Shown piece after piece: positions 42,670 to 60,433 of a stretch of DNA of 64,000 nucleotides (positions within the stretch are counted from its first letter, which is position 1; the number at the start of each line of letters is the position of its first letter). The translations under genes and the position numbers were made by a program. Location of the stretch: NCBI RefSeq assembly GCF_032842345.1, contig NZ_WBKO01000001.1, positions 1,054,001 through 1,118,000 of the forward strand. Direction: 5' to 3'. The notes under the pieces are model-generated. The model was not told the origin of the DNA. It searched no databases and saw nothing but the letters and a program-made list of their open reading frames with translations. This stretch comes from Methanoculleus caldifontis (lineage in GTDB: Archaea > Halobacteriota > Methanomicrobia > Methanomicrobiales > Methanoculleaceae).

Positions 42670-44814
42670 ATGATGAGCGAGAGTGAGCCCGAGCGCCCCC
42701 GGATCCGGATCCCGGTCAGGACCAAGTTCCTCCTCGTATTCCTGGGTCTCTCGACGGTCGCCCTCCTCCTCGCCGGGTCTCTTGCCTTCGTGCAGATGGA
42801 CGATGTCGGCCGCTACGCCCTGGACCGGAGCACCGATCTCGGAGCCCGCGCGATGAACGACAGCACCGCCGCGCTCGAGCGCAACGCCGAGGAGTCGCTT
42901 CTCCGGCTTGCGCAGAACCAGGCTTACATCAGCAATATCGTCTTTGAGCAGGTGAGCGGGGATCTTGAGATCATGGAGCGGTACGCGGCGACCATCATGG
43001 AGAACCCGTCCATGGTCCGGCCGCGGCACTTCTACCTGCAGGACGAAGAGCCGGCAGACCGGCGCGCAACCTCCCTCCTCTTCCTCTCGCCCGGCATCGA
43101 TGCCGGGCGCCTTAGCGAGGAGCGGGACGCCGCCGGGACGATGAACGACATCTTCATCCCCGTCTCCGCAACGAACCGGCACCTGGCGAATGTCTACGTC
43201 GGGACGGGTTCGGGGATGGCGATGATTTACCCCTGGACGACCGGGCTCGATCCTGCATGCGACCTCCGGCTCAGGAGCTGGTTTTCGCAGGCAGTCGAGA
43301 CCGGGGGTCTCGTCTGGTCCGAGCCGTATGTCGATCTCATCGGGCACGGCCTGATGGTGACCTGCTCGCGGCCGGTCTACCATCCGGAGAAGGGCTGGGT
43401 CTGGGTGGTCGGTGCGGACGTCACGGTCGAGACGATCAACCAGCAGATCATCGGGACCCAGGTGGGCGACCGGGGCTACGCGATGCTGATCGACCAGCAT
43501 GGAAACGTCATCAGCCGGCCCGGCCTCACCTCGGGCGACCTGCGGTGGGACGCGTCGTTCGTCGCCGAGAACCTGCTTTCGAGCGAGAACCCGGATCTCG
43601 CTTCGGTCGCCGAAAAGATGACCGCGGGGGAGACGGGGGTCGCCAGGATCAGGTTTGACGACGGCGAGCGGTTCATCGCGTATGCCCCCGTCCGGAGCGT
43701 GAACTGGAGCGTCGGTGTCGTGATGCCGGTCGACGAGGTGCTCGCGCCGATAGAGAAGACCCGATCGAGCATCTTCCAGGCCTCGGAGGATACCGCCGCG
43801 CATATCGGCAGTCAACAGGACGCAATGAAGACCATCTTCACCGGGGCGTTCCTCGGCCTGCTCGCCGTCGTCGCCCTCCTGACCCTCGCCGTCACCCGGC
43901 ACTTCACCCGGCCCATCGAGGAACTGCAGAAGGGTTCCGAGGCCATCGGCCGGGGCGACCTCGATCACCGGGTGGAGGTGGCGACCGGGGACGAGTTCGA
44001 GGAGCTTGCCCACTCCTTCAACCGGATGACGGCCGATCTGAGAGGACACGTCGAGGATCTCCGTCGGACGACCGCGGAGAAGGAGCGGATCGCAAAGGAG
44101 CTTGAGATCGCGAAGGAGATCCAGCAGAGCATCCTGCCCGAGTCGGCGCCGGTGCTTCCCGGGTTCGACCTCGCAGGCTTCAACCTGCCTGCCCGGGAGG
44201 TGGGCGGGGACTTCTTCGACTACATCCCTGCCGGCGAAGGTTGCTGGGGCGTCGAGATCGCCGACGTATCGGGGAAGGGCGTTCCCGCCGCACTCTTCAT
44301 GGCCCTCTCCCGCACCCTCGTCCGGGCGAGCGCGTCGGAGAGCTCCGATCCGGTCAGGTCGATCCTGGAGGCGAACCGCTACATCTGCATGGATTCAAAG
44401 ACCTGCATGTTCGTCACCCTCTTCTACGGTATCCTCGATACCCGGAAGGGGACCTTCACCTACGTGAACGCAGGCCACAATCCTCCCCTCCTCTTCAGGG
44501 CGGGATCGAGCGAGGCGGAACTCCTCCAGGGGAAGGGGATCGCCCTCGGGATCTTCGACGATATCGAGCTCGAACTCGTGGAACTCCGGCTGAACCCCGG
44601 CGACACGGTGGTCTTCTACACCGACGGGGTGAACGAGGCCACGAACGAGCGCGACGAGGAGTACGGTATGGAGCGGCTCAAAGCGTTCATCCCGGGACTG
44701 CTCGACCGCCAGGCACGGGAGATGATCGAGGCGATCGTGGAGGACGTCACCGCCTTTGCCGGCGACCGGCCGCAGTTCGACGATATCACGCTTGTTGTGC
44801 TGAAGGTCGGGTGA
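42670..44814 (+). CDS. Membrane sensor phosphatase: Cache-HAMP-SpoIIE (PP2C, RsbU-like)
   Basis: The 714-residue product has a membrane helix (about 20-40), an extracellular double-Cache sensor (about 45-390, with [19 protein letters not shown] and [15 protein letters not shown]), a second helix (about 395-413) and a HAMP linker ([20 protein letters not shown]). A coiled coil ([20 protein letters not shown]) leads to a SpoIIE/PP2C phosphatase domain (about 500-712) with [24 protein letters not shown] and [11 protein letters not shown]. Such proteins dephosphorylate anti-sigma-antagonist (STAS) partners in bacteria; the archaeal partner is unknown, and no STAS gene is nearby. The stop codon overlaps the start of the PKD-dockerin gene. 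Confidence 0.9.
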
Positions 44815-45620
44815 TACGGGTGAGATGGATCCTCATGGTACTTCTCCTCTTCGCCCTTGCCGGCCCCGCCTCAGCCGTTCCCCTCCTTCCCGCGGAGTTC
44901 TGGGGCACGGTCACGATCGACGGGAGCCCGGCGCCGGCGGGGACCGTCGTCACAGCAAGGATCGACGACCGCGACTGCGGGTCGCTCGCCACGGCGGCTG
45001 CCGGGGCCTACGGCGGGGATAGCCTCTTCGATACGCGTCTGATCGTCGGCGGGGAGGACGGCGATGCCGGGAAGGCGATCGTCTTCCTCGTGAACGGTAT
45101 GCCCGCCGGGACGGCGGTCTACACCCCTGGCACTTCCGTCCGCCTCGATCTTGCGGCCGCCGGCGGGAAAGCGACCATCTCCGCGAACGTGACCGCCGGC
45201 ACCATCCCGCTCACCGTCCGGTTCACCGACACCTCCGCAGAGAATCCATCATCCTGGCACTGGTCGTTCGGTGACGGCGGCACTTCCGTAGAGCAGCATC
45301 CGGTGCATACCTACACCCTCCCCGGCAACTACACCGTCTCGCTCTCGGTGGACGGCGGGCTCGCGACCGTCACGAGACCCGGTTACGTCAGGGTCACCCC
45401 GGTCCTCTTCGGGGACGCGAACGAGGACGGCGCGGTCAACCAGGCCGATACCCTCGTCGTCCTCCAGGAGGTCGTAGGTCTCCGGGAGAAGCCTGCCGCC
45501 GGGACCGATCGGTTCCGGAAGACGGACGTCGACGTGAACGGCGTGATCGAGGTCGGCGACGCTCTTTTCATCGCCCAGCACAACGTCGGCCTCCGGGACC
45601 CGTGGTTCGGGTTGCTGTAG
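44811..45620 (+). CDS. Secreted PKD-domain protein with C-terminal dockerin
   Basis: The product of about 269 residues has a signal peptide (core [16 protein letters not shown]) and a beta domain beginning [22 protein letters not shown] domain follows (about 120-195; [20 protein letters not shown]). The type I dockerin near the C-terminus has two calcium loops, [12 protein letters not shown] and [12 protein letters not shown], each followed by a helix ([22 protein letters not shown]). This dockerin closely matches that of the large protease downstream. The start is GTG at 44811 (4-nt GTGA overlap with the phosphatase) or GTG at 44820. Dockerins bind cohesins, of which four are encoded in the next 15 kb. 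Confidence 0.85.
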
Positions 45621-45940
45621 TCCCGGTCGGCCGCGCAGAGGAGATCGTCGCGGCGACTGCGAGGGGCATGCCCTCCCCTGTTTGTGAAATTTCCCGGCAG
45701 AATATCGGGGGAAAAGCTCTTCAGTCTTCACTCCTGCTTCTTTTTCCCCATCCGGCCGTAGTGACGTTCAATATAATCTTATCTATTCGATATCCTGCTC
45801 ACATGGAGTAAATATTTAAAAATCCCGCTCAAAATTTGATTATTTTTTATTTCTCATCTCTGGGATGTGTGTTGGAAACAAAACTATTATATGCAGAATA
45901 ATCGTTTTATCTTCTCATTGATCGTTTTTGGGTGATCTGC
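45621..45940 (+). promoter_or_regulatory. AT-rich promoter region of the protease gene
   Basis: This 320-base spacer contains a T5 run (about 45749) that may terminate the dockerin transcript. An unusually AT-rich stretch from 45770 to 45930 follows. A TATA box, CTATTATATG at 45884-45893, preceded by a purine-rich BRE-like GAAACAAAA, lies about 50 nt before the ATG. A second AT block (ATATTTAAAAAT near 45810) could be another promoter. The ribosome-binding sequence GGTGATC (45932-45938) decides the start at 45941 rather than the in-frame GTG it contains. Confidence 0.55.
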
Positions 45941-48900
45941 ATGAGAATGTCGAAATTCGTGGCGGGATTGATTATCCTGCTCATTGTCCTGTTCCTGGCG
46001 GGCACCGCGAGTGCCCTGCCGGGAGATGACCGGACCGTACGGGACCCCCCCTCCGTCCAGGCGGGGGAGCGGGTACCGGTGTTCCTGGTCTTGAACGAAC
46101 AGCCAAAGCAACCTGCGTCCTTTGGCGAGCTCAAAGCCAACGCTCTGAGCCGTCAGGCGCAGGTGCTGCAGACCGTCGGAGCAGTCGACTCTGCGGCCGC
46201 AAAGACCGCCCGGTCCTACTGGATCGCGAACGCGATCTGGATGGAGGCCGATCCGGCAGCGCTTGATCAGCTTGCCAGGATCCCGGGGGTCAGCCGCATC
46301 GAGCCGGACCTGACCGTCACGCTCAGCGACCCGGTCACGGGGGTTGCATCGACGATCAGCCCCGAGTCCATATCGCGGCCGGAGAACGGGTACGCCACGG
46401 TCTGGAGCGTGGACTATATCGAGGCCCCGTCCGTCTGGAAGAACGGGACCATCGGTGAAGGAGTGACGATCGCCATCGTCGATACAGGTATCGAGGGCGA
46501 CCACCCGGCGTTCGGCGACCGTGTCGTCAAATTCGCCGACTTCGTCTACGGTGACAACACCTCCGCCTACGACGACCACGGCCACGGCACCCACTGCGCC
46601 GGTACGGCGGCAGGCGGCACGGTCACGGTCGAGAATTATGACGGCCAGTTCGACGTGGCCCTCGGCGTCGCGCCTGGAGCGAACCTGATCGGGGCAAAAG
46701 TCCTCGGCAGTGGAGGTTCCGGCTCGTTCAGCACAATTCTCAGCGGCGCTCAGTGGGCGGTCGACAACGGGGCCGACATCGTCTCGATGAGCCTTGGGAC
46801 CTACGTCTCCCGCGACAACTACGAGGGTGGCTTCTACCTCTCCGAGGGCGAGAGCCGGATTGTTTCGCTCGATGTCTCGTCGCAGATGCACGATGTTTTC
46901 GGTGTCCTCTATGAGCCCCAGTTCGTGATCGGATCGGTCCGGGTTGAGGACCAGTATTACTACGCCACTGCGGCCGGATATGATCCAAACCCCCTGGAGA
47001 GCCTCACCATCACCATCACGGATGGTAACGGCAACATCGCCAGCGGCGCCGAGATCGACTGGCTCGGTTTCGACCAGAATACGAACCGCTACTACTTCAA
47101 GGCGCCCTATGCCTCGAACACCGCAGGCTGGAACGGTTTCTGGAAGCTCAATGTGACGAACACCGGAGAGACCGGGGTCTCGATCCGGGAGGCCGGGCTC
47201 TCCGAGTGCTATCAGTCCAACGGGGAGACCATCCTTGATGCCGCTATCAACAACATGGTCGCCGGAGGCACCGTCGTCGTGATCGCCGCCGGGAACAATG
47301 GAGAGTTTGGTACCGCCACCATCGGCACGCCGGGGACCGCAAAAGACGCCATCACCGTCGGCGCCACCGACTACCTGATGGACTACCGTGCGTTCTTCAG
47401 CAGCATGGGGCCGGTGAACCGGGCAGCGCCGTACATCAAGCCCGACGTCATGGCGCCCGGTGTCGCGATCATCTCGGCGTACCCCGGCTGGCAGTATGCC
47501 TCCGGACAGGGCACATCGATGGCCTGCCCGGCCGTCGCCGGAGCGGCGGCGCTGATGCTCTCGGGCAACGAGACCCTTACGCCCGCTGAGGTGAAGGCCG
47601 CCCTGATGAAGACGGCGGTCCACATCGGCGAGGACGGGGCCATCCTGCCCGTGATGCAGAAGAACAACGCCTACGGTGCAGGCAGGATCAACGCCTATGA
47701 GGCGGTGAACACCACCGGCGGCCTTGGTGAGGCTCTCCCGTGGAACGGGATCCAGCACGAACTCATCGGCGGATCCCTCGGTTACAGCGTGACGGGCAAT
47801 ACCCTCCCGGTCATGGCGGTCCTCTGGAACACGACCGCAGGGGAGCCCCTTGCGGGAGAAGAGGTTGAGCTCAACGTATGGTACGAGGGGTATTACAATT
47901 TCCAGTATTACCGCGCCTATGTTGACAACCAGACGCTCACGACCGATGAGTATGGGTACGCCTACTACAATGCGGACATATCCACCGTCCCTACCAGCAG
48001 GTCTGTCTACACCAGAATCGCCAGTGGCAGTCTCCAGCTGGAGGGCTCGGTGTGGAAGAACTCGGTCACGCCGACCCCGACCGTGACGCCGGAACCGATC
48101 GTCCCCATCTACACTAGCGAGACTTACCGGGTGGACCGCAACGCGACCGTTGAGATCAAGTATCCGCTCCTCGCCGCCGACGGCTCGCCCTACGTGGAGG
48201 ATGTCGCCTTTACGGTCGAGAACGACAGTGATACCCTCGTCGACGAGGTGCTCACCCCGGTGAACGGCGTCATCGCGTACTCGCTTGACCTTGCCGGGAG
48301 GCCGCTTGATGAGACGGATCTCGACATCTGGGTTGGAGGAAGATACGCGGGAAGCGTCTACGTAAGCCAGCAGGAAGACATCAGCCAGCACGTGCGGCCC
48401 TTCCCGAATCGCGCCATCTGTCTGCCGGGAGAGACGGTCGACCTTGGCATCATGGCCATGTCGTTCCACGGGCGGAAGACCGCGAGCCAGGAGTTTGACG
48501 TCTATGTCACCACGTTGACGGAGACCGAGGTACTCTCGCTCTCGTCGGCAGGCGCTCGGACCCTTTCCACGCCGGAACTGGGCAATATGCAGGCGCTCCG
48601 TGCCGAGGTCGCCGGGATGAAGCCCGAGACCCGCATGGGCTCCGTCGGCCTGACGAACGGCATCGGGCTTATGAGCTTCACGATGCCGGAAGACGGCTAC
48701 ATCGCCATCGTCCGGTTTGTCGCTCCGTATGAAGCCATGCCCATGGCCCAGTCGCCCGGCGAGGCGGTCACGGTTCTCGTCTACGGGACGCTCGAACCCT
48801 GGCTCATGCACCGGAGCACGCCTCCGGCCTACGAGGACTCCTACAATGGGACCCGGACGTTTGTCTACGCCACCTACGACTGGCCGGCGGTCTGGGACCA

Positions 48901-51277
48901 GAGCGCCTACGCATCGGTCCCCGCCGATGAGGCCACCATCACTGCCTGCGTCTACACCTACGACCCGGCGACGGTTGAGTCCGATGAATCGAGTGAATCC
49001 GGCGCCGCGCCCGGGAAGACGGTCTATCTTTACACCAAAGACGGTGTCCAGACCGGCGTGACCGGCCCGGATGGTACCTGTACCTTCACCGTTGATACGA
49101 CTGACAGAACGATGATGGAGTATCTCCTCATCTCGCCGGGCGTCACCGCCTCCCGGGGTATCTGGAAGGGGCATACCCCGTTCAGTCTGATCAACGGTTA
49201 CTCAGTCAACCCTGGACTGATAGCCAACAGATTCTCCGCATCTGCGCACACCGGGACGCTTTACCCGGACTCCGAGATGCGCGACATCAGCGTTATCCGT
49301 GACGGCGACGCGTACAATGTGAAAGCGACAAGTTACGGCCCTGCTGATGAGCTCATCCACGAGAGGGGAGCTTTCACCTTCAACAGGCTACCCGGTGCGT
49401 CGATGGAGGGTTCCGCGGGAACCGAAGTGGCTACTGTGGTGGACTTCACCGGCACGAAGACCATCCGTGTGACTCCTGCGACGAAAGAGTATTACGCGGC
49501 TTCCTATCGTCTCCTCAACCCGAACGACCAGTCTTCCGAATCTCTCTACTACATGTTCGGTAGCCCGGAGAAGTCCGTTTCCTACACGATGCCTGACTCC
49601 GTCCTGCTCGGGTCGTCCGTGCCGGTCGTCTTCAACGCATCGACCAGCGACGGAGCGCCGATTGCCGGTGCGCGCGTCGTGCTCGCGCTGGGCGCAGCGT
49701 CGAGTGAGTCGTACGGCGTGTCCTCCTTCTCCGATCCGAGAAACGAGAATATTCTTCTCGCGGCGCGCAACTTCCCCGACCCCTACACAGTGATCGCGAA
49801 CGGTTACACGGATGCCTCCGGTAAGGTAACCCTGACCTTCACCGCGCCCAATGCCGGTCAGCAGGCGCTGAGGGAGGCCCTCGTTCACGCATCGGGCGTC
49901 TCCTACGAGATCTCCTGCTACCACGATGGTGAGTTTGTACAGGCAGGCTACGGCTACCTGGGGTTAACCGCCGAGGCTCTCCCCGACTTCGTGCCGGACA
50001 TATCCGCGCCGCAGATCGTGAAACTCGAGCGGAACGACCAGATCACCATCTCCAACGTCGCCCTCTTCATCAGCAACATCGGGACGGCGGACTACGTCTA
50101 CGACTCGAACAACAGGATGACCTGCACTGCCGAGGTCGGGCCCCACAGCGAGAGCACCTACTTCACGAACAGCCTCGCCAGGGGTGTGAAGGCGTCTGTC
50201 CTCACGACGACGGTCTCGCGCAACGCACGCGATTTCGGTATCAACACGAGCGACTACCGGCTGCCCCTCGACGTCGACGTCGGGATCGAGGTCAACGCGA
50301 ACCGGGCGGTCGCGGAGCTGAACTACCAGAACAACCGGCTCGTGCACCCTGTCCGGATCACCGCGCCTGACCTGGCCGTCGAGTTCCTCGCGCCGAGATA
50401 CACCACGCCGGCAGGCATCACCACGATCGGAGTCCGGGTGACGAACCACGGCGAGGTCGGGAGCAACGCGGCGAGCCTCTGCTACACCATCACCGGCAAG
50501 CCGGAAGCGACGGTCGCGGTCCCGGCGCTCGCGCCCGGACAGTCGACGATGATCTGGCAGAACCAGACGCTTGTCGCCGGCGAGTACACGATCGACGCCG
50601 AGGTCAACCGTGCAGGAGCGACCGACTACGAGACGACGTTTACAAACAACCGCGTCAACACCACGATCGGCTCCTACACCAACCCGGCGACCAAAATCGA
50701 GCTGCCCCGGAACCTCGTGCTGGTGCCCGGCACGACCTACGACCTCCCGATCACCGTCAACCAGGTCTCCGACCTTGCGGCCTACCAGGTAGACCTCACC
50801 TTCAACGGCTCCGTCCTTGCGGTGCAGGACGTCATCCCCGGAGCGCTGCCTCTGACGGCGAAGAACATCGGAAGCGGGAGCGTCAGGTTCAACGGCGCCG
50901 CAATATCCGGCGTCAGCGGGAATGTCACCGTTGCCACCGTCCGGTTCAACGTCGTCGGTAAGACCGGTGACGAGACGGCCCTGAACATGGTTGCAGGTCT
51001 CTGGGATGCGAACACCCTCGTGATCCCGGCCGAAGTCGTGAGCGGCGATGCGTATCTCCTGCTCTACGGCGACGCGAACGGTGACGGGAAGGTCGATCAG
51101 GCAGACACCCTGAAGGTTCTCCGCGAGGTCGTCGGCCTCGATGCGAAGCCTGCTATCGGGACGACGAAGTTCCTCCAGACCGATGTCACCAGGAACAGTG
51201 CCATCGAGGTCGGCGATGCGATGTTCATCGCCCAGTATAATGTCGACCTGAGGGACGAGTATTTCAGGCTCAAGTGA
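45941..51277 (+). CDS. Secreted subtilisin-like protease with CARDB, cohesin and dockerin modules
   Basis: The 1778-residue exoprotein has a signal peptide (1-25) and an I9-like propeptide (about 40-125). The subtilase domain holds the catalytic triad D181 (AIVDTGIEGDHP), H215 (DDHGHGTHCAG) and S526 (GQGTSMACPAVAG), plus the oxyanion N452 (IAAGNNG). About 140 residues (about 288-428) are inserted into the catalytic domain after VSMSLGTY. Several beta domains follow, then two CARDB-like repeats (about 1345-1580), a cohesin-like domain (about 1585-1705, LAAYQVDLTFNGSVLAVQDV) and a C-terminal dockerin with loops DANGDGKVDQAD and DVTRNSAIEVGD. It thus carries both halves of the cohesin-dockerin pair. 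No membrane anchor is seen, so attachment must come from partners. The next gene follows after 21 bp. Confidence 0.9.
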   Translation: MRMSKFVAGLIILLIVLFLAGTASALPGDDRTVRDPPSVQAGERVPVFLVLNEQPKQPASFGELKANALSRQAQVLQTVGAVDSAAAKTARSYWIANAIWMEADPAALDQLARIPGVSRIEPDLTVTLSDPVTGVASTISPESISRPENGYATVWSVDYIEAPSVWKNGTIGEGVTIAIVDTGIEGDHPAFGDRVVKFADFVYGDNTSAYDDHGHGTHCAGTAAGGTVTVENYDGQFDVALGVAPGANLIGAKVLGSGGSGSFSTILSGAQWAVDNGADIVSMSLGTYVSRDNYEGGFYLSEGESRIVSLDVSSQMHDVFGVLYEPQFVIGSVRVEDQYYYATAAGYDPNPLESLTITITDGNGNIASGAEIDWLGFDQNTNRYYFKAPYASNTAGWNGFWKLNVTNTGETGVSIREAGLSECYQSNGETILDAAINNMVAGGTVVVIAAGNNGEFGTATIGTPGTAKDAITVGATDYLMDYRAFFSSMGPVNRAAPYIKPDVMAPGVAIISAYPGWQYASGQGTSMACPAVAGAAALMLSGNETLTPAEVKAALMKTAVHIGEDGAILPVMQKNNAYGAGRINAYEAVNTTGGLGEALPWNGIQHELIGGSLGYSVTGNTLPVMAVLWNTTAGEPLAGEEVELNVWYEGYYNFQYYRAYVDNQTLTTDEYGYAYYNADISTVPTSRSVYTRIASGSLQLEGSVWKNSVTPTPTVTPEPIVPIYTSETYRVDRNATVEIKYPLLAADGSPYVEDVAFTVENDSDTLVDEVLTPVNGVIAYSLDLAGRPLDETDLDIWVGGRYAGSVYVSQQEDISQHVRPFPNRAICLPGETVDLGIMAMSFHGRKTASQEFDVYVTTLTETEVLSLSSAGARTLSTPELGNMQALRAEVAGMKPETRMGSVGLTNGIGLMSFTMPEDGYIAIVRFVAPYEAMPMAQSPGEAVTVLVYGTLEPWLMHRSTPPAYEDSYNGTRTFVYATYDWPAVWDQSAYASVPADEATITACVYTYDPATVESDESSESGAAPGKTVYLYTKDGVQTGVTGPDGTCTFTVDTTDRTMMEYLLISPGVTASRGIWKGHTPFSLINGYSVNPGLIANRFSASAHTGTLYPDSEMRDISVIRDGDAYNVKATSYGPADELIHERGAFTFNRLPGASMEGSAGTEVATVVDFTGTKTIRVTPATKEYYAASYRLLNPNDQSSESLYYMFGSPEKSVSYTMPDSVLLGSSVPVVFNASTSDGAPIAGARVVLALGAASSESYGVSSFSDPRNENILLAARNFPDPYTVIANGYTDASGKVTLTFTAPNAGQQALREALVHASGVSYEISCYHDGEFVQAGYGYLGLTAEALPDFVPDISAPQIVKLERNDQITISNVALFISNIGTADYVYDSNNRMTCTAEVGPHSESTYFTNSLARGVKASVLTTTVSRNARDFGINTSDYRLPLDVDVGIEVNANRAVAELNYQNNRLVHPVRITAPDLAVEFLAPRYTTPAGITTIGVRVTNHGEVGSNAASLCYTITGKPEATVAVPALAPGQSTMIWQNQTLVAGEYTIDAEVNRAGATDYETTFTNNRVNTTIGSYTNPATKIELPRNLVLVPGTTYDLPITVNQVSDLAAYQVDLTFNGSVLAVQDVIPGALPLTAKNIGSGSVRFNGAAISGVSGNVTVATVRFNVVGKTGDETALNMVAGLWDANTLVIPAEVVSGDAYLLLYGDANGDGKVDQADTLKVLREVVGLDAKPAIGTTKFLQTDVTRNSAIEVGDAMFIAQYNVDLRDEYFRLK

Positions 51278-51298
51278 GGGAACAAGGAGGAAAATGAA

Positions 51299-54200
51299 AT
51301 GAGACATATGATATGGAGCATCCTGCTCCTCACCCTCCTCTGCGGCGTCTGCTCTGCTGCCACGCTCTCGGTGGATCCAGCGGAGAGCACCTGCGCCAGC
51401 GGGGAGACCGTGGACCTGACCGTCTGGGTCAAGGACGTCAGCAACCTGGGCGGGTTCGACTTCGACCTGAAGTGGGACCCCCGGGTCGTCAGGCTCAACG
51501 GAACGAATGTAGATGACAGCATCATAAAGGGACCCCACGTTGACAGCATCATGGTGAACTCCCAGAGCGGGAGAGCCCGGATCGCGGGCATAAGCGCCCT
51601 CGGGATCACCAGGGGAGCCGATGGAGCCGATCTCTTTGCGGTGCGGTTCGTCGGGGTCGACGACACGGGCGCCTCGACGCCGGTCACCCTCACCGTCAAC
51701 AACTACGGGTTCCTGAACTCCACGTCCGGCGAGGAGATCCCGGTCGCTGCGATCACCAACGCCACCATCACGGCTGAGAAGACCAACGTCGTCGATGCCC
51801 GGATCGCCGTGCCGTCCAACCAGGTGATCACCGGCCTCGAGAGCCGCCTCACCGCCTCCGTCGTGAACCGCCGGGGTGCCGTGACGTCCCCGCTCGACGT
51901 CAACGTCAGCATCGTCGACGGCAGCGGCGCCATGGTCGAGTCCTGGCTCTATCCCGGTGAGACCGTTCCCGCCTGGGGCAGGTTCCAGCGGGAGCTTGCC
52001 TGGACTCCGGCAGCGCCCGGGACTTACAGCGTCCGGATCAACGTGACGAGCGATAAGCCCGTCTCCGGAACGACGGACTACACGACGACCATCACCGCAA
52101 AGGAGTACACCCTCGAGTTCACCGACGGCTACGTCTACGGCCCGTGGGACGGCAGGGCGAGCGCCGGCTCATGGTTCAGCATGGGCGCCTACGTGAGGGC
52201 AAGCCAGCCGGGCAACGTCCGGTTCAACATCACCGCCCCGGACCATGTCGAGGTCGACGGCGGGAGAAACCAGACCCGGTACCTGTATGGCTACGACTGG
52301 AATTACGTCGGTGTCTGGATGCGGTCGAACACGCCCGGCCGGATCGCTGCGGGTGATATCAAGTTCGATATCGCCGCGAACGGCAAGGCCGACTCAGTCG
52401 ACTGCCCGACCGTACTCATCTGGATCCCCTCGATCCAGGTCTCGTCCGTCAATGTCACATCGGTAACCGGGACTCCCGGTGAACTGACCTTCAACACCCT
52501 CCACACCAACAACACCTACGACAACGTAACGAAACTTACCATCCAATCCGGCGCCCGCGGGCGCACGCTCTCCGGTCTCGACTACCTGGTCGGCTACCCC
52601 TACGGGTGCGTCGAGCAGACGACGAGCCGGATGATGGCATCGTTGAACGTGAAGAACTACTACCTCGACCGCGCGGAGAGACCCACGAACTGGGACAGCA
52701 TCCGGGAGAATGTAAACTCCTCGATCTCCGGCGGTGTTCAGAAACTTGTCAGGGGCGGCGAGGTCGGCCAGAACAGCGACGGTGGCTGGAACCTCTGGGG
52801 CGGCGACCCCTCGGAGTCGTCGTCGAGTTCCTACGCGAGTTACACTCTCGCCCGAATCAACATGCCCGAAGAGGACTTAAACCGGCTCCTTGACGGGAAG
52901 ATCTCAAACGGCAGCACGGTCACTTCCGGCACCGTAAACTTCGAGAAACTGATCCAGTGGTTCCACGACAACCCGGACAACCCGAGCAGCGGTACCTGGA
53001 CGTGGAGCGCTCACGTCTGCCACTCGTGGACACCGGAGTCGAACACCGCGTTCGTCATGCTCATCCATGACATGATCAACCAGACGGTGGAGCTGGATGC
53101 CGAGCACCGCGGCTACATGGAAGACAACATGAGGAACGCCACGCGGTACTTCGTCGACACACAGAAGCCGGACGGTTCGTGGTCGACCGGCGACGACCAG
53201 GCGATGGCGACGGCGCTTGCCCTCTGGGGCCTTGAGTCGTTCGCGCTGCCCTCAGACGACGTCACCGACCAGCAGATCGCTGATGCAAAGGCGGCTGCGG
53301 CGGAGTGGCTGATCGCGAGCCAGAACTCCGACGGATCCTGGCCGGTCGGCGGCTACTACGGCTGGTATTACGGAGGGCGGGATGCCGAAGCGACCGGCTA
53401 CGCAGTCCTCGCGCTGAACGCGACCGGGCTCACCGCCGATAACCCGACGATCAGCAGCGGCGTCAACTGGCTCATCGAGCAGTACGAGACCGGCGGAGGA
53501 TGGGGATACACCTGGGCCACTCAGGTAGCCATCGATGCGCTGATCCAATGCCAGCCCAACATCATTACCACCGGCACGGTCGATGTCGTCATCGACGGGG
53601 CGTCTATCGGCACCTTCAGCGTGGACGCGACCAACCCCCGGACGACCTACACGCTCACACCTGCTCAGATGGACGTCCTGATGGCGGGCGGAAACCTGAA
53701 GCGCGACATCTTCGGCGACGGGTTCTCCACGGTGAAGTCTCACCTGCTCACCGCCACGCTCACTGCCGGCAGCGGGCCGATCCTGGTCAGCGTCGACCAC
53801 ACGCAGTATGCCCCGACGAGCGAGATCGACAACACGATCCGGTCAAACCCGGTGATCCAGTCGTTCGGCTACGACGAAGAAGAGGCCGGGCTCCTGCAGG
53901 TCTCGACGGATATCGGGACGCTCGCCGATCTCGAGGAGGAGAACCCCTACACCGTCGGCATCACCTCGACCCCGATGGTCGCCGGCGAGGAGGCGGATCT
54001 GACGATCACGGTCACGTCGAGCAAGAATGTATACTCCCCGATGATCGAGGTCCCGATCTCCGGGTTCAGCTTCGATAACGCGTCGACCATCTTTGAGAAC
54101 GGAACTGCCGGGGCGTTCGAAGTCCTCAACAGCACGACGAGCAGCGACCAGCTCGCGCTCTTCATCCAATCCGTCGGGTGGGTAAGGAACGTGGAGATGA

Positions 54201-55111
54201 CCTACCGGTTCACGATAATCCCCAAGACTCACGGGGATCTTGATGTGGACCTCCGCATCCGGCCGCTCTACGACGAGACGCAGGTGACCTTTGCGAGCGA
54301 GACCATCCGGGTCATGGGCAAGGGGAACGTCACCGTCAACGTCGTCGATGAGAACGGTGCGTCGGTCACCGCCGACAGTATCGCACTCGGTGCGACCAGC
54401 GTTGCCGACAAATCGAGCCACACTTTCACGAGTGTCCTTCAGGGGACCTACCCGCTCGTCGTGAACAGCACCGGCTACCCCTCGATCCACACCGCGGCCC
54501 GGGTCGCGCCCGGTGCGACGGGAATCTACAACGTCACGCTCCCGTCGTCCCTCGCCGACCCGACCCTGGTCCTCTCGGAGGGAGGCGCCGGCAGCATCGC
54601 CGACGTGGCGCGGGTACCCCCCGAGCCGCTCAACGCGCTCCGGAACGAGAACACCACCTACAGCGTGACGGTTCTCGGGAACGGCGGCGAGCTCGGCCTT
54701 GCGCTCGAGTTCCCGATGCGTTACCTGATGAACAACCCGGTTGTGAAGGTGAACGGCGTTGTGACGCCGTATGAGCTGATCAACGGGACGTTCGAGTACA
54801 ATCCTCTCACGAGGACTTACTCGACCACGAACGCCACCCTGGTCGTCTACAACACGACGGCCGGCAGCAACACTATAGATATCGAGTTTGACGGCGGCAG
54901 GTTAGGCAAAGCCCGGAGGACCGGCGAGGTCACCTCTACGGATGCGATGTTCGTTCTGCAGTTCGTCGTCGGCAGCAGGGCTGGTTTCGACACGTACGAC
55001 TACGTCGACGTTCATTCCCGCGACAGGCAGATGATCACGTCCACGGATGCGATGTACATCCTCCAGAAGGTGACGGGTTCGCGCGACGAGTATTACAACC
55101 TTAAATCCTGA
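51299..55111 (+). CDS. Secreted cohesin - alpha-2-macroglobulin-type thioester domain - degenerate dockerin protein
   Basis: The 1270-residue protein has a signal peptide (1-20) and an N-terminal cohesin (about 21-160; LGGFDFDLKWDPRVVRLNG, ARIAGISALG). Beta-sandwich domains follow (about 160-410). The thioester motif YPYGCVEQTTSRMM (C437, Q440) is the hallmark of alpha-2-macroglobulins and complement proteins. It starts an alpha/alpha-toroid domain with repeated QNSDGGW, QKPDGSW, QNSDGSW and GGGWGY motifs (about 437-740). More beta domains precede a C-terminal dockerin-like tail with two TSTDAM helices (about 1205-1268) whose calcium-binding aspartates are largely replaced. AAGGAGG 8 nt upstream sets the ATG. 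The adjacent protease suggests a protease-trapping or covalent attachment role; that is inference. Confidence 0.85.
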   Translation: MRHMIWSILLLTLLCGVCSAATLSVDPAESTCASGETVDLTVWVKDVSNLGGFDFDLKWDPRVVRLNGTNVDDSIIKGPHVDSIMVNSQSGRARIAGISALGITRGADGADLFAVRFVGVDDTGASTPVTLTVNNYGFLNSTSGEEIPVAAITNATITAEKTNVVDARIAVPSNQVITGLESRLTASVVNRRGAVTSPLDVNVSIVDGSGAMVESWLYPGETVPAWGRFQRELAWTPAAPGTYSVRINVTSDKPVSGTTDYTTTITAKEYTLEFTDGYVYGPWDGRASAGSWFSMGAYVRASQPGNVRFNITAPDHVEVDGGRNQTRYLYGYDWNYVGVWMRSNTPGRIAAGDIKFDIAANGKADSVDCPTVLIWIPSIQVSSVNVTSVTGTPGELTFNTLHTNNTYDNVTKLTIQSGARGRTLSGLDYLVGYPYGCVEQTTSRMMASLNVKNYYLDRAERPTNWDSIRENVNSSISGGVQKLVRGGEVGQNSDGGWNLWGGDPSESSSSSYASYTLARINMPEEDLNRLLDGKISNGSTVTSGTVNFEKLIQWFHDNPDNPSSGTWTWSAHVCHSWTPESNTAFVMLIHDMINQTVELDAEHRGYMEDNMRNATRYFVDTQKPDGSWSTGDDQAMATALALWGLESFALPSDDVTDQQIADAKAAAAEWLIASQNSDGSWPVGGYYGWYYGGRDAEATGYAVLALNATGLTADNPTISSGVNWLIEQYETGGGWGYTWATQVAIDALIQCQPNIITTGTVDVVIDGASIGTFSVDATNPRTTYTLTPAQMDVLMAGGNLKRDIFGDGFSTVKSHLLTATLTAGSGPILVSVDHTQYAPTSEIDNTIRSNPVIQSFGYDEEEAGLLQVSTDIGTLADLEEENPYTVGITSTPMVAGEEADLTITVTSSKNVYSPMIEVPISGFSFDNASTIFENGTAGAFEVLNSTTSSDQLALFIQSVGWVRNVEMTYRFTIIPKTHGDLDVDLRIRPLYDETQVTFASETIRVMGKGNVTVNVVDENGASVTADSIALGATSVADKSSHTFTSVLQGTYPLVVNSTGYPSIHTAARVAPGATGIYNVTLPSSLADPTLVLSEGGAGSIADVARVPPEPLNALRNENTTYSVTVLGNGGELGLALEFPMRYLMNNPVVKVNGVVTPYELINGTFEYNPLTRTYSTTNATLVVYNTTAGSNTIDIEFDGGRLGKARRTGEVTSTDAMFVLQFVVGSRAGFDTYDYVDVHSRDRQMITSTDAMYILQKVTGSRDEYYNLKS

Positions 55112-55121
55112 GGTGAACCGA

Positions 55122-55856
55122 TTGAAACCCATTTTTTCACGCACACTCATTCTTGTAGCGCTACTGTGCGTATCGTTCACAGCGGTACAGGCAGCGGAAG
55201 TGCGCCTCGCTGACGGGCAACTCACCGTCGCGGGCGTCGACGACAGCATCGGCCTTGGCGCCTTTGATGTCGTCCTCTCGTACGGGCCTGATGTCTCCGT
55301 CACCTCCGTCGAAGGCCTTCCGGGTTTCCTGGTGGCCAGCAACATCAGGAATGGCGAGGGAATGACCATCATCGCCGGAATCTCTGCTGACGGTCCGACG
55401 GGTGATGTCCCTGTCGCGTCCGTGGTGGTCGAGGGGACGGGCTCCATCGCGATCGCTGTTCGGGAGCTGGCTAACAGCCGTGGAGATCCGATTCCTTTCA
55501 CCAACCCGGCATTTGGCGGGACCACCCCCACCCCGGTACCGACCACACCCGGAAGCATGCCCGGGAGCGGTAGTTCCGTCTCGTCCGGGAGCGGGGGCCC
55601 TGCTTCCACACCGGCCCAGACTCCCACGCCGGCAACGACCGCCGCGCCGGGAGAAACGCCGCAGGCGGTGGAAACCGGATCGACACCGGCCGTGACGGCT
55701 GCGACGACGACAGCGGTACAGGCGGGAGCGACAACAGAGCCCCTGGAATCACCTGAAGCGGGTGAAACTGCAGAGAGCACGCCGAAAGCGGGACTACCTG
55801 TCCTTATTGTCCTCTTCGCGGTTATGATCGTAGTTGTATTAAATAGAAAGGATTAA
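55122..55856 (+). CDS. Membrane-anchored cohesin-like protein on a Thr/Pro-rich stalk
   Basis: The product of about 244 residues has a signal peptide (core LILVALLCVSFTAVQA) and a single cohesin-like beta-sandwich (about 25-135; LGAFDVVLSYGPDVSVTSVE, MTIIAGISADGP). A low-complexity Thr/Pro/Ser/Gly stalk follows (about 140-220), then a C-terminal membrane helix (LPVLIVLFAVMIVVVL) with an RKD tail. This is the layout of an anchoring scaffold that could hold dockerin-bearing proteins at the cell surface. GAGGTGA lies 5 nt before the TTG at 55122, preferred over a GTG at 55113 that has no ribosome-binding site. The start is 10 bp after the stop of the thioester protein gene. Confidence 0.8.
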   Translation: MKPIFSRTLILVALLCVSFTAVQAAEVRLADGQLTVAGVDDSIGLGAFDVVLSYGPDVSVTSVEGLPGFLVASNIRNGEGMTIIAGISADGPTGDVPVASVVVEGTGSIAIAVRELANSRGDPIPFTNPAFGGTTPTPVPTTPGSMPGSGSSVSSGSGGPASTPAQTPTPATTAAPGETPQAVETGSTPAVTAATTTAVQAGATTEPLESPEAGETAESTPKAGLPVLIVLFAVMIVVVLNRKD

Positions 55857-55881
55857 TTATCTCTAAAAAAGAGGCTTGATT

Positions 55882-58800
55882 ATGAAAAAGCAGACCTATG
55901 TTAACGCCATACTTGTTCTGCTGTTAACTCTGTCTCTCTGTATCCCTGCAGCCAGTGCCGTAGGAGCCGGCACTGTGTCCGTGACGGATAATACAGGGGT
56001 TCGACAGGGCGAGACGGCAAATGCATCTGTCTGGTTTAACAACGACTTTAACCCGAAAGCGGGTTCATTTACATTTGCAGTCTACTTCGACGAATCGGTT
56101 GTGACGGCAACCGAAGTCAGTGCGGACGCTACGTTCCAACTTCCGCCCGGGCGCTCAAGCGGGATGATCTTCGCAGGGGCGACCGGAACCGGCTACTCGA
56201 ACACCGCTCCGTTCTGGGTTGCGAATGTTACCTTCGAGGCCGTGAAGAACGACGGTTCGTCTACCCCGGTCGGGGTCGTTCTGATAACGCTGGACGACAC
56301 CAACGGTGACGATCTCATCTCATCAACGACCGTCATGAACGGCACCTTCACCACCAAGGATGAAGTGCCCCCGGCGATCACGCTCACCACGCCCGTGACC
56401 GTCTCATCCACGTTCAACATCGCCGGCACTATCACCGACGTCGGTGGGATGGGAACCGCTCAGGCCACCCTGGCGAACGCGACCCACACGGTGCCCTTCG
56501 CCCTCACGCTCAGCGGGTCGGCTCCCGGTTACACCTTCAGCGAACAGGTCACCTGGCCGATTGAGGACGGGGTCACCCTGACGGTCACCGCGACCGATGC
56601 CGCGGGCAACGCCGCGGCGCCCAGATCGCAGGTCATCAACGTCGTCAACGTCGGGTTCTCGCAGCCCGCACCGACCGGCTACATCAACGCCGTCCCGGCC
56701 CAGGCACAGGCCTTCATGTCCCAGATGGACAAGACGTCCGTCGGTATGATCCTCGGCTCCGCGACCTACGGCCCGATCCCGCTGGTCGTCGACACCACTA
56801 CTGACTACGCCAGGGGCACCGTGCCTCCCGCTCTTCCCGACGGCGACTACTGGGTGAACGCCAGCGGCACCGACAACTTCGGCGATGAGCGGTACCTGAA
56901 CTGGACCTTCACGCTCGACACCACCGCACCGGTGATCAACTCCTTCACCATCACCGACAGCGACGGTGACGGTTACATTGAGGCCGGCGAGACTCTTACG
57001 CTGACCTGGGACGTCTCCGCCGACCCGAACTTTGACCGTGTCGCCCTCGTGGACGTCGCAACCGGCCAGGAACTCTGGACCAGCGGCAGCCTCTCCGGGA
57101 CCACCACGACGACGATCCTCGACGGAAACCGCGACCTCGCGTTCCGTGCCTATGACCGTGCGGGCAACTTCGGCAGCCGCGGGTTCCACCTCTACTATGA
57201 CTACATGGTCTGGGTGAACTCGACCAGGATGGGCGAGGTCTCCGGCATCGACACGACCTACACTGCGGTGAAGGATATCAGCAGGACCGCGGTAAGTTCC
57301 ATCACCCTCTACGGGTGCACCGTGACCCTCCCCACCCTCGACTCGCTGGTGAGGACCGTTACCGGTGTCGGCCAGGTCACTCCCGACACCTACGTGACTG
57401 TCGATGCGAACGCAAACCGGACTCTCTCAGGAAGCGAGACCTACGGCAACGTCTGGGTTCTTGATCCCGGCGTGGACCTCGACTTCCTGGTGCAGGTCCC
57501 CCATGCTCACAAGGCCACCCTCGTGCTCGCGGAGGCGAACGAGTCCTACATCGCCGACCTGATCCATGGCGGGCGGGGCGGCATGCACTCGGTCAACTAC
57601 ACCGAGCTCATCAAGAGGACAGCCTACATCTTCATCGATGGCGGCTGGACGAAGATCACAGTGGCCGACGACGGCACGATCTCGATGGATGCACAGTCCG
57701 GGACTCCCATCACCAACGCGGGCAACATCTCCGCGACCCTCCGCCACCCGGCCAACCAGGTGGACCTGGACGGTGCCGGCTACCGGCTGAGCACCCAGGG
57801 TCTTGACGCGATCGTGCCCGCTTCCGGCGACTATGCGCTTGCCGCGATCGCTATGGACGGCGACCGGATGGGTATTATCGGCGCGATGCCGATCATGGTT
57901 CTCGGGAGTGCAGAACTGGGCTCGATCTCCGCCACGAGCGTGGTGCAGGGAGGAAGCATTACCGCGCAGTTCACGTCGCCCTGTGAGCGCCTCGGCGTGG
58001 TCCTGCTCCGCAACGTCGCCTACAACGGCACCGCGGTGATCGACGCGGCGACGCTCGGTGCGAACTCTCTCCAGGTGAACCTCACCTACAACGGCATCCC
58101 CGCGACCCAGAAACTCATCGGCGACATCTACGTCAGCCCGAGCAGCGGGAAGTATGTCGTGGCGAACACCAACCAGGCCACGATCTCGACAGCGGGACTG
58201 GATGCCGGCACCTACCGGGTCTACATGGTCGGGCTGAGCGCGAGCGGAACGATGCAGGCCTATGGCCAGCACACGCTCCAGATCACCCCGGTCGGGAGCA
58301 TTGCCGTCACGTCCGTCCCCACGGGTGCGACGATCTACCTCGACGGAGCGGACACGGGCGTCGTGACGAACGGAACGCTCCCCGGTGTTCCGGTCGGGAC
58401 CCACAACGTCACGGTGACGCTGGCCGGCTATAACCCTGCCTCCTCGCAGGTGACGGTCGCCGCCGGTCAGACCGCTACGGCTCACTTCGCTCTTACCCCT
58501 GTTGCAGAGACGGGGAGCATCGCCGTCACGTCCGCCCCCACGGGTGCGGTAATTTACCTTGACGGAACAGCTACCGGTGTTGTGACGAACGGGGTTCTGA
58601 CCGGCGTCCCGGTCGGGACCCACACCGTTGCGGTGTCGCTGGGCGGATATAACCCCGCCTCCTCGCAGGTGACTGTCGTTGCCAACCAGACCGTTGCGGT
58701 CCACTTTGCCCTGAGCCCCAGCGGCGGCGGCGGTGGCGGCGGCGGTGGCAGCAGCAGCAGCCGCACGACCTCCTACACCGACGCAGGCACGCTCTCGGTC

Positions 58801-59406
58801 AGCAGCTCGGGCACCGTCATCCGGTCCATCATCGTTAACGCCAACGACCAGGTCGGAAACCTGTTCGTCCCGGTCGGCGTGAAGGCGCTCGATGCCAACG
58901 GCAAGCCGCTCACCAGCATCGCCTTCAGCCCCCTCGCTGAGGACGAGGTGCCGGGGATCCCGTCTGGCTCGGTCTTCCGGTTTGCCGGCTACGCCTACGA
59001 GGCCGGTCCTTCCGGCGCCACGTTCAACCCGGGCATCACCCTGACGTTGAACATCCCCGACGACGTCTGGGAGACGCTCGACCTCACCGACACCCAGCTG
59101 AAGCTGATGTGGTACAACCAGGAGACCGGTCTCTGGGAAGAGATCGAAGCAACTGTCTCTCCGGAGACGAAGACCGTGAAAGCAACGGTTACGCACTTCA
59201 GCGTCTACGCGCTCTTCACCGAGACAGTGACGACGCCGGTCACCCCGACCGAGACGCCGACCACGGTCTCGCCGACGACGCAGCCCACGACGCCTCCGGC
59301 GGCAGAGCAGCCCGCTGAAGGGCTGCCCATGACGACGATCCTTGCTATCTTTGCGGTCGTCGTCATCATCGCAGCGGCCGGATACTTCTTCATGATGCGG
59401 AAGTAA
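55882..59406 (+). CDS. Large surface protein: cohesin-like, Ig-like and two PEGA domains with C-terminal anchor
   Basis: The 1174-residue protein has a signal peptide (1-26) and an N-terminal cohesin-like domain (about 27-160; AGSFTFAVYFDESVVTATEV). Ig-like or Big domains follow, the first starting ITLTTPVTVSSTFNIAGTI. Two PEGA domains (about 805-950) are near-identical tandem repeats of 73 residues (GSIAVTSVPTGATIYLDG / GSIAVTSAPTGAVIYLDG). A Gly9-Ser4 linker leads to a beta domain, a Thr/Pro stalk and a C-terminal helix (TILAIFAVVVIIAAAGYFFM) with an RK end. The ATG at 55882 has GAGG upstream. It is the last gene of the same-strand series and could be the largest anchor of the surface complex. 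Confidence 0.82.
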   Translation: MKKQTYVNAILVLLLTLSLCIPAASAVGAGTVSVTDNTGVRQGETANASVWFNNDFNPKAGSFTFAVYFDESVVTATEVSADATFQLPPGRSSGMIFAGATGTGYSNTAPFWVANVTFEAVKNDGSSTPVGVVLITLDDTNGDDLISSTTVMNGTFTTKDEVPPAITLTTPVTVSSTFNIAGTITDVGGMGTAQATLANATHTVPFALTLSGSAPGYTFSEQVTWPIEDGVTLTVTATDAAGNAAAPRSQVINVVNVGFSQPAPTGYINAVPAQAQAFMSQMDKTSVGMILGSATYGPIPLVVDTTTDYARGTVPPALPDGDYWVNASGTDNFGDERYLNWTFTLDTTAPVINSFTITDSDGDGYIEAGETLTLTWDVSADPNFDRVALVDVATGQELWTSGSLSGTTTTTILDGNRDLAFRAYDRAGNFGSRGFHLYYDYMVWVNSTRMGEVSGIDTTYTAVKDISRTAVSSITLYGCTVTLPTLDSLVRTVTGVGQVTPDTYVTVDANANRTLSGSETYGNVWVLDPGVDLDFLVQVPHAHKATLVLAEANESYIADLIHGGRGGMHSVNYTELIKRTAYIFIDGGWTKITVADDGTISMDAQSGTPITNAGNISATLRHPANQVDLDGAGYRLSTQGLDAIVPASGDYALAAIAMDGDRMGIIGAMPIMVLGSAELGSISATSVVQGGSITAQFTSPCERLGVVLLRNVAYNGTAVIDAATLGANSLQVNLTYNGIPATQKLIGDIYVSPSSGKYVVANTNQATISTAGLDAGTYRVYMVGLSASGTMQAYGQHTLQITPVGSIAVTSVPTGATIYLDGADTGVVTNGTLPGVPVGTHNVTVTLAGYNPASSQVTVAAGQTATAHFALTPVAETGSIAVTSAPTGAVIYLDGTATGVVTNGVLTGVPVGTHTVAVSLGGYNPASSQVTVVANQTVAVHFALSPSGGGGGGGGGSSSSRTTSYTDAGTLSVSSSGTVIRSIIVNANDQVGNLFVPVGVKALDANGKPLTSIAFSPLAEDEVPGIPSGSVFRFAGYAYEAGPSGATFNPGITLTLNIPDDVWETLDLTDTQLKLMWYNQETGLWEEIEATVSPETKTVKATVTHFSVYALFTETVTTPVTPTETPTTVSPTTQPTTPPAAEQPAEGLPMTTILAIFAVVVIIAAAGYFFMMRK
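58294..58725 (+). repeat. Tandem PEGA-coding repeat, two units of 219 bp
   Basis: Two consecutive segments, starting at 58294 and 58513, encode the two PEGA domains and are highly similar at DNA level (for example GGGAGCAT, CCCACGGGTGCG, CGGTCGGGACCCACA). They mark a recent internal duplication in the surface-protein gene. A GGC-rich run coding for nine glycines follows. Confidence 0.7.
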
Positions 59407-59854: not shown

Positions 59855-60433
59855 ATGAAGAGAATGTTTGGTATCCTTGCGCTCATGGTGGTCGCAAGCC
59901 TCATGATCGCGGGGTGTGTGCAGCCTGCGGGCAACGAGACGGGGACTCCCGGCGCAACCCCTACACCGACACTGGCGGCCGAGACCCCGGTATTCACTAC
60001 ACCGGGGCAGGCCGAGACGCCGATGACGACACCGGTTGAGACACCGGTTGAGACACCGATTGAAACACCGGTAGAGACGCCGATGACGACGCCGGTTGGG
60101 AATGAGACACCTGCGGCCACGCCCGCGGGCGTAACGGAGACCCCGCCGGGACCACCGGCAGCCGTGGTCGCTGACGAGCTCATCTCCATCACGGACGGCG
60201 GATTCTCGCCGAGTTCGGTCACCGTTCCTTCCGGGACCACGGTGGGCTGGACCAACGATGCCAGCACAAACCAGACCGTCACGGCGACCGGGACTATGGG
60301 CTTCTTTGACTCCGGCCTGCTCGCGCCCGGTGACTCGTTCACCTACCCCTTCACCGCAACGGGCAACTACACCTACACGTCACAGACATCAGGGTTCGCC
60401 GGAGAGATCATCGTCACTGTTAACACATCCTGA
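59855..60433 (+). CDS. Cupredoxin-fold lipoprotein lacking the copper ligands
   Basis: The 192-residue product begins with a lipoprotein signal ending MIAGCVQPAG (acylation on the Cys). A repetitive Thr/Pro/Glu stalk (about 30-90; TPVETPVETPIETPVETP) follows, then a C-terminal plastocyanin-like domain (about 105-192; ITDGGFSPSSVTVPSGTTVG, GDSFTYPFTATGNYTY). In copper-binding relatives the loop NDxxxxHTV and the ending CxxHPxM supply His, Cys, His and Met. Here they read NDASTNQTV and TSQTSGF, so none of the ligands remains. It is probably a surface adhesive or structural module, not an electron carrier. It is monocistronic and convergent with cbiA. Confidence 0.85.
   Translation: MKRMFGILALMVVASLMIAGCVQPAGNETGTPGATPTPTLAAETPVFTTPGQAETPMTTPVETPVETPIETPVETPMTTPVGNETPAATPAGVTETPPGPPAAVVADELISITDGGFSPSSVTVPSGTTVGWTNDASTNQTVTATGTMGFFDSGLLAPGDSFTYPFTATGNYTYTSQTSGFAGEIIVTVNTS

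Follow-up and report, generated by a model that had tools for sequence, protein, structure and literature searches.

Introduction

Cellulosomes, as found in Clostridium/Acetivibrio and Ruminococcus, are two-tier assemblies (type I and type II) in which anchored cohesins hold adaptors having one cohesin plus a dockerin of other specificity, and in which secreted clients share a common, dual-symmetric dockerin type. Subtilase-family (S8) and papain-like dockerin proteins are accessory cellulosome parts (PMC12484212, PMC3573020), and cellulosomal proteases and serpins are both known in that role (PMC12484212). A quite different group of proteins, complement C3/C4, CD109, TEP1 and the bacterial alpha-2-macroglobulin (A2M) ECAM, has a CUB-TED-CUB-MG8 core (TED, thioester domain) with a CxEQ motif. 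Here we describe a gene cluster of the archaeon Methanoculleus caldifontis (order Methanomicrobiales) that has the modules of both groups. It lies in a window of 64,000 nucleotides, positions 1,054,001-1,118,000 on the largest of the four contigs that make up the 2.6 Mb genome.

Non-cellulosomal archaeal cohesins and dockerins are known from proteins of Archaeoglobus fulgidus and anaerobic methanotrophic archaea (ANME) (PMC9012536), and 2xdh is the solved cohesin nearest to those described here. The A. fulgidus and ANME cases comprise isolated modules, scaffoldin-like proteins and ABC-binding proteins and, unlike the present case, are not part of a conserved protease-thioester-anchor operon. 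The study of Makarova et al. 2021 (PMC8416519) reports archaeal TED/CxEQ homologues of A2M and thioester-containing proteins (TEP) in Halobacteria and Methanomicrobia, notes surface proteins and endoproteases near some of these TEDs, and proposes a complement-like role. Cohesin and dockerin are not mentioned in its main text, and some of the loci given below may be in its supplement. The cohesin-dockerin mounting, the clients encoded in trans and the assignment of binding partners are new here. The mucinolysome (PMC12997984) is likewise a cellulosome-like complex specialised for another task; it differs in being bacterial, in having mucin-degrading enzymes and in having, by its abstract, no thioester protein.

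The M. caldifontis cluster resembles a cellulosome in that cohesins and dockerins, which would presumably bind one another, are encoded together with a surface anchor. It differs in being archaeal, in having one cohesin per protein and no multi-cohesin scaffoldin, in using a complement-like thioester protein as the adaptor, and in having no glycoside hydrolase. The last point, found among the clients scanned, rules out membership of the cellulosomes. Unlike C3/C4, CD109, TEP1 and ECAM, the thioester protein has no N-terminal macroglobulin ring, anaphylatoxin or recognisable bait, and has a cohesin and a dockerin at its ends. We found no published account of cohesins or dockerins with archaeal thioester proteins in a search that left out most subscription journals, and within the literature searched the cluster is an undescribed, conserved combination joining two known kinds of system. 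On balance, we think that it encodes a tethered complement-like platform for covalent capture, having its own proteases and assembled on the cell surface in two tiers.

Results

The gene cluster and its modules

Five consecutive genes of the same strand encode proteins with signal peptides (judged by eye), which together have three dockerins and four cohesins. These are the PKD protein, the subtilase (SUB), the thioester (TED) protein, the short protein and the PEGA protein:

44811..45620, + strand: PKD-dockerin protein, 269 aa, an exported client (Pfam PKD_4 56 bits; Dockerin_1 21.6 bits, near threshold)
45402-45617, + strand: dockerin of the PKD protein (Pfam Dockerin_1 21.6 bits)
45932..51277, + strand: subtilase, 1781 aa, with S8, CARDB, cohesin and dockerin domains (Pfam Peptidase_S8 179 bits, CARDB, Cohesin 27 bits, Dockerin_1)
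50678..51049, + strand: SUB cohesin (Pfam Cohesin above cut-off; 17-orthologue alignment)
51059..51274, + strand: SUB dockerin, with calcium-type loops, conserved across the order (Dockerin_1 23.8 bits in the genome scan, 18.3 bits with the whole protein)
51299..55111, + strand: TED adaptor protein, complement/A2M-like, 1270 aa, cohesin then MG/CUB/TED core then dockerin (TED_complement 44.6 bits; AlphaFold2 (AF2) model matches C3/C4/C5/CD109/TEP1)
51356..51778, + strand: TED-protein cohesin (Pfam Cohesin 36.5 bits; solved cohesins 3l8q, E 1.2e-5, and archaeal 2xdh, E 7.5e-4)
52604..52618, + strand: GCVEQ thioester motif (Cys437, Gln440; CxEQ conserved in relatives)
54890..55108, + strand: hypervariable dockerin of the TED protein, with most calcium ligands gone in the window species (orthologue-profile matches)
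55113..55856, + strand: short membrane-anchored cohesin protein, 247 aa (AF2 predicted local distance difference test (pLDDT) 95; best Foldseek/VIA matches are cohesins)
55188-55538, + strand: short-protein cohesin (Z 11.8 to 2xdh); hydrophobic anchor at about 55788-55844
55876..59406, + strand: PEGA protein, 1176 aa, with cohesin, Ig-like body, two PEGA domains and C-terminal membrane anchor (PEGA 100 bits)
55957-56373, + strand: N-terminal cohesin of the PEGA protein (Cohesin 22.3 bits; hhalign to the TED cohesin 95%)

The gaps between the SUB, TED, short and PEGA genes are only 21, 1 and 19 bp; hence these four genes probably form a single operon. The PKD gene lies 311 bp 5' of the SUB gene and shares a 4-bp overlap with the end of the preceding SpoIIE-phosphatase gene. 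It therefore may be a neighbouring client outside the operon, and only the five nearest relatives have it adjoining the cluster. Both the short protein and the PEGA protein end in a hydrophobic stretch followed by a basic tail, and the D-H-S triad is present, by motif, in the subtilase of the window and in nearly all complete orthologues.

An initial annotation of this DNA, made from the sequence alone, had proposed five same-strand genes for exported proteins with this same set of modules, two of the proteins being membrane-anchored, built around a protease and an A2M-like protein and having no glycoside hydrolase. Gene coordinates and strand agreed with ours, the triad, the GCVEQ motif and the TED_complement match bear out the two central proteins, and the module counts were upheld by Pfam, profile comparison and the short-protein model.

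Cohesin and dockerin identity

A translated whole-genome Pfam scan gave three cohesins, every one in this cluster; as there was no cohesin match elsewhere in the 2.6 Mb, their clustering is more than chance. The SUB and TED cohesins scored above the Pfam cut-off and the PEGA cohesin just below it (22.3 versus 24.1 bits), the last matching the TED-cohesin profile at 95% probability upon profile-profile comparison. The short-protein cohesin gave no Pfam match in the window species, and a search of its sequence against solved structures returned only chance matches to ankyrin repeats. The N-terminal domain was modelled by AF2 from 16 orthologues with a pLDDT of 95, and the best solved match of the model by Z was the A. 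fulgidus cohesin 2xdh (11.8), with cellulosomal cohesins also present and all top rows being cohesins. By this model the domain is a cohesin, which bears out the initial annotation on a point for which it had named structure prediction as a check.

The C-termini of the PKD, SUB and TED proteins each have two tandem F-hand repeats, a feature of Dockerin type I. The calcium ligands D1/N3/D5/D12 are retained in the PKD and SUB dockerins. In the TED dockerin of the window species most of the ligands are gone, although several orthologues retain at least one loop, and owing to this decay of the calcium loops Pfam gave no dockerin match at the TED-protein C-terminus in the window species. A profile made from 17 TED-protein orthologues matched solved dockerins (4uyp_B, E 1.2e-6) and the PKD/SUB dockerins (98% probability, E 1.2e-14). 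The PKD dockerin is 65-86% identical to the dockerins of SUB and of three clients encoded elsewhere in the genome.

The thioester protein

The AF2 model of TED-protein residues 160-1270, built from 25 sequences, had a mean pLDDT of 74 and a predicted template modelling score (pTM) of 0.49. Throughout its first 850 residues it resembles complement and A2M proteins, matching C4A dg with Z 27.5 over 285 residues (2.8 A) and native C3 with Z 25.3 over 595 residues (model residues 111-848), and aligning with CD109 over 683 residues. As modelled, the protein is the C-terminal, CUB-TED-CUB-MG8 half of C3/CD109 plus a short stretch upstream. Residues 1-160 are the signal peptide and cohesin, and too little sequence is left ahead of CUB-TED; the N-terminal macroglobulin ring (MG1-MG6) and the bait are absent, with the cohesin in their place.

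The CxEQ motif was intact in each of the order's 25 TED proteins and in the seven distant ones examined (32/32), in the form GCVEQ or GCPEQ, or as WCVEQ or ACVEQ in three distant proteins. Its retention at identities down to about 23% reflects strong selection on the thioester pair.

Co-variation of dockerins and cohesins

Partners were assigned by co-variation, the partial correlation of pairwise segment distances with background distances regressed out. Of the segments tested, the SUB dockerin varied least (mean pairwise difference 0.30), and the TED dockerin (0.60) and PEGA cohesin (0.65) were the fastest changing, other segments falling at 0.42-0.55. In a first pass the TED dockerin correlated with the PEGA cohesin (0.77) and the short-protein cohesin (0.68) and with neither the TED nor the SUB cohesin, and the correlation fell to 0.08 directly past the PEGA cohesin. 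A refined pass, in which a near-duplicate was removed, segments were realigned and the domain neighbouring the dockerin was added to the background, gave r 0.72 for the PEGA cohesin (jackknife 0.70-0.77, p 2e-4) and r 0.54 for the short-protein cohesin (p 2e-4), versus -0.17 for the TED cohesin and -0.25 for the SUB cohesin. The signal stopped at the cohesin boundary (PEGA 161-330, r -0.01).

The SUB dockerin correlated with the TED cohesin (r 0.43, p 4e-4) and with no other cohesin, including that of SUB itself (r 0.10). The two repeats of the TED dockerin share species-specific residues just before the last calcium ligand (for example NVN/NVN, DVF/DVF, TST/TST), repeat-to-repeat identity at two positions being 84% (permutation p<1e-4, n=16). 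Recognition by dual-binding dockerins is known to use these positions. The simplest reading of the co-variation is that the anchors would bind the thioester protein, which in turn would bind the subtilase and other clients.

The initial annotation had also suggested that proteins with both module types could chain into polymers. Such proteins are indeed encoded, but the co-variation separates two tiers, TED dockerin with anchored cohesins and SUB-type dockerin with the TED cohesin, and hence fits a layered stack better than open-ended chains, although one subtilase may still link to another.

Conservation of the cluster

A search with the TED protein across 232 genomes of the order turned up another 16 full-length orthologues, which are 47-79% identical to it, and about eight orthologues that are divergent. 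Gene order, another check named by the initial annotation, was retained as SUB-TED-short-PEGA in 16/16 orthologous loci from six genera and three families (L047 and L050 end at contig edges), the SUB protein of L054 being without a protease domain. In six of eight divergent loci the TED, anchored cohesin and PEGA genes are adjacent, usually with a subtilase alongside. The cluster is patchy and is missing from most relatives within the genus of the window species.

Beyond the order, the genes run S8-TED-membrane protein-PEGA in G360, and in G425, G701 and G635 an anchored cohesin protein is encoded near S8 and TED, PGF-CTERM-like tails being present in several. In G437 (L227:8403-16406) the subtilase and TED protein form a single 2668-aa open frame having the triad and GCVEQ intact, with genes for a dockerin protein and then an anchored cohesin 3' of it. 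These distant archaeal hosts look like haloarchaea by protein character, and the cluster is sparse among them (4/243 genomes in the order of G437). A nanohaloarchaeal contig (L134) encodes a TED protein, an anchored cohesin and a protein that has both cohesin and dockerin. Among 80 distant bacterial and archaeal TED loci, only a Methanogenium locus and one nanohaloarchaeal contig had similar cohesins or dockerins, the profiles used being biased to the present group and some contigs being short.

Three further loci were noted. G701 has a second, paralogous TED-dockerin-anchored cohesin locus (L237) with no subtilase alongside. Genome G196 and those of genus g38, of the same order, have 14-26 dockerins and few cohesins each, a different dockerin-rich system. 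In G119 a cohesin lies within a 9331-residue open frame (G119:C1:1096348).

Clients encoded elsewhere

Three unlinked proteins of the window genome have the cluster-type dockerin, 85-86% identical to that of the PKD protein. One is a papain-family (C1) protease with a Lectin_like domain; beside it is encoded a matrixin-like metalloprotease with HELGH (M10 19 bits, below cut-off), and the third is a kelch/BNR protein. The initial annotation had called the complex self-contained, which these unlinked dockerin clients rule out. At L066:9648-14762, genes for a matrixin-like and a papain-like protease that each have the cluster-type dockerin lie next to one another, convergent to apparent ribosomal protein L10/L12 genes.

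Within the 232 genomes the SUB-type dockerin profile gave strong matches in 17/17 with an orthologous cluster versus 5/215 without (Fisher 1e-21, phylogeny not corrected for), and two of those five have a divergent cluster. Within the genus the same comparison gave 5/5 versus 3/30 (p 2e-4). The unlinked, non-fragment clients of the window and other genomes (n=38) include 10 peptidases (6 S8, 2 C1, 2 M10-like) and 10 NHL/kelch/SBBP propellers; no glycoside hydrolase or plant-polysaccharide enzyme family was matched at E<=0.001 among the clients scanned, in keeping with the initial annotation.

A 2490-aa NHL/PKD propeller client with the cluster-type dockerin (L116, L121, L123) is 90-94% identical among loci whose thioester proteins are 48-72% identical, and between two families it is 90% identical versus 48% for their thioester proteins. 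It was likely moved by recent horizontal transfer, judging from these identities, and its near-identity across families is what an exchange of clients, with a dockerin read across species, would lead one to expect.

Other dockerins were encountered in the same searches. Those in frames of about 730-900 aa occur in most cluster-less members of the genus too and are probably unrelated to the cluster, and a beta-helix/CARDB protein at L067:7821-10004 has a dockerin of another type.

Neighbouring genes

Directly upstream of the PKD gene are genes encoding a Cache-HAMP-SpoIIE phosphatase (42670-44814) and a PAS histidine kinase (40796-42430). The overlap of the PKD and phosphatase genes suggests translational coupling and perhaps regulation by this sensor pair. 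A cupredoxin-like lipoprotein gene (59855-60433) lies just 3' of the PEGA gene and is present in L042 too. An Rfam scan of the window gave no matches.

Discussion

The computed modules, folds, conserved motif, gene order, co-occurrence and partner co-variation are the basis of our proposal for a two-tier surface assembly. In the first tier the membrane-anchored cohesins of the short and PEGA proteins would hold the thioester protein by physical binding of its C-terminal dockerin. In the second, the TED-protein cohesin, and probably the SUB cohesin too, would recruit secreted proteins having the second, order-wide dockerin type, namely the subtilase, the PKD protein, the papain-like and matrixin-like proteases and the beta-propeller proteins. 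With anchor, adaptor and client the arrangement follows the logic of a small cellulosome, a complement-type protein taking the adaptor's place. Were the thioester to form, the CxEQ motif would most likely capture targets covalently, such as proteins or glycans on the surface of foreign or neighbouring cells, in attachment or defence, and the subtilase or another docked protease would most likely expose the thioester or trim the captured target. Protease-triggered activation is supported by the adjacent subtilase gene and by the one subtilase-TED fusion.

Several observations weigh against this proposal. Given its pLDDT and pTM values, domain packing in the TED-protein model is not reliable. 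No histidine matching the catalytic one of C3/A2M was found among the invariant columns of the TED alignment, and indeed no histidine is invariant at all. Histidine-independent thioester chemistry is of the C4A type, and in view of the missing histidine the TED protein may have chemistry of that kind. L054 and L062 keep the thioester-anchor core with no subtilase catalytic domain in the cluster; hence activation by the subtilase cannot be universal, and what stays invariant is a core of thioester protein and anchored cohesin. In the short protein the tail outside the cohesin tracks the TED dockerin as well (r 0.35), and thus part of the co-variation is linked exchange of the region, although the farther PEGA cohesin exceeds this nearer tail. 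The SUB dockerin and TED cohesin give a weaker signal, with comparable scores in a few windows outside the cohesins.

An unlikely alternative is that the complex is part of the sheath, S-layer or biofilm matrix of the organism itself, where the thioester would link self proteins and the proteases and propellers would serve maturation or adhesion. The many PKD, PEGA, NHL/kelch propeller and beta-helix clients and the membrane or PGF-CTERM-type anchors would fit such structural cross-linking, but a structural envelope component would not be expected to be missing from most relatives of the same genus, nor its clients to be exchanged between families.

We think it quite improbable that the TED protein is a guard, namely an A2M-type trap that inhibits proteases and shields the surface or the docked complex. 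It has the A2M-family fold and CxEQ, proteases are co-encoded and co-docked, and cellulosomal protease inhibitors are known (PMC12484212), the dockerin-bearing serpins of clostridial cellulosomes being proposed guards of this kind. Yet a cohesin stands where a trap would have its N-terminal macroglobulin ring and a recognisable bait, and the G437 fusion would put trap and target protease in one chain, which is unexpected.

It is very unlikely that the cluster serves nutrition, as a protein-digesting counterpart of the cellulosome in which the TED protein is a mere adaptor. One genome does encode serine, cysteine and metallo-protease domains with one dockerin type, but peptidases are only about a quarter of the clients, and a pure adaptor would not need the invariant thioester motif. 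Moreover, proteins are not a growth substrate for the hydrogenotrophic methanogens of this group.

That there is no assembly, only drifting Ig-like and EF-hand-like domains with linked recombination of neighbouring segments, is scarcely credible: the TED-dockerin calcium ligands are lost in the window species and adjacent segments do co-vary to some degree, but the co-variation is stronger at the farther PEGA cohesin than at the nearer tail and vanishes beyond that cohesin, the TED-dockerin halves change in step, and unlinked clients, which co-occur with the cluster, retain one and the same dockerin.

A broader version of the tethered capture platform, which we put forward as possible though doubtful, is an archaeal complement-like system of surface immunity or attachment. 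In it protease-triggered thioester proteins would be mounted on anchored cohesins, with a species-specific code joining effector to anchor and an order-wide code for clients, and this would be the main function of archaeal cohesins and dockerins, which have been unexplained since 1999.

The cluster places the cohesins and dockerins of archaea in a concrete context and links the cellulosome clip with the complement thioester, two well-known devices that we found nowhere described together. The partner predictions make binding of the modules testable by a few assays, and in the matched species-specific dockerin-cohesin pairs nature offers a library of orthogonal protein clips. Should the thioester act as we propose, archaea would possess surface-tethered covalent capture with its own proteases, which would bear on the origin of complement-type proteins.

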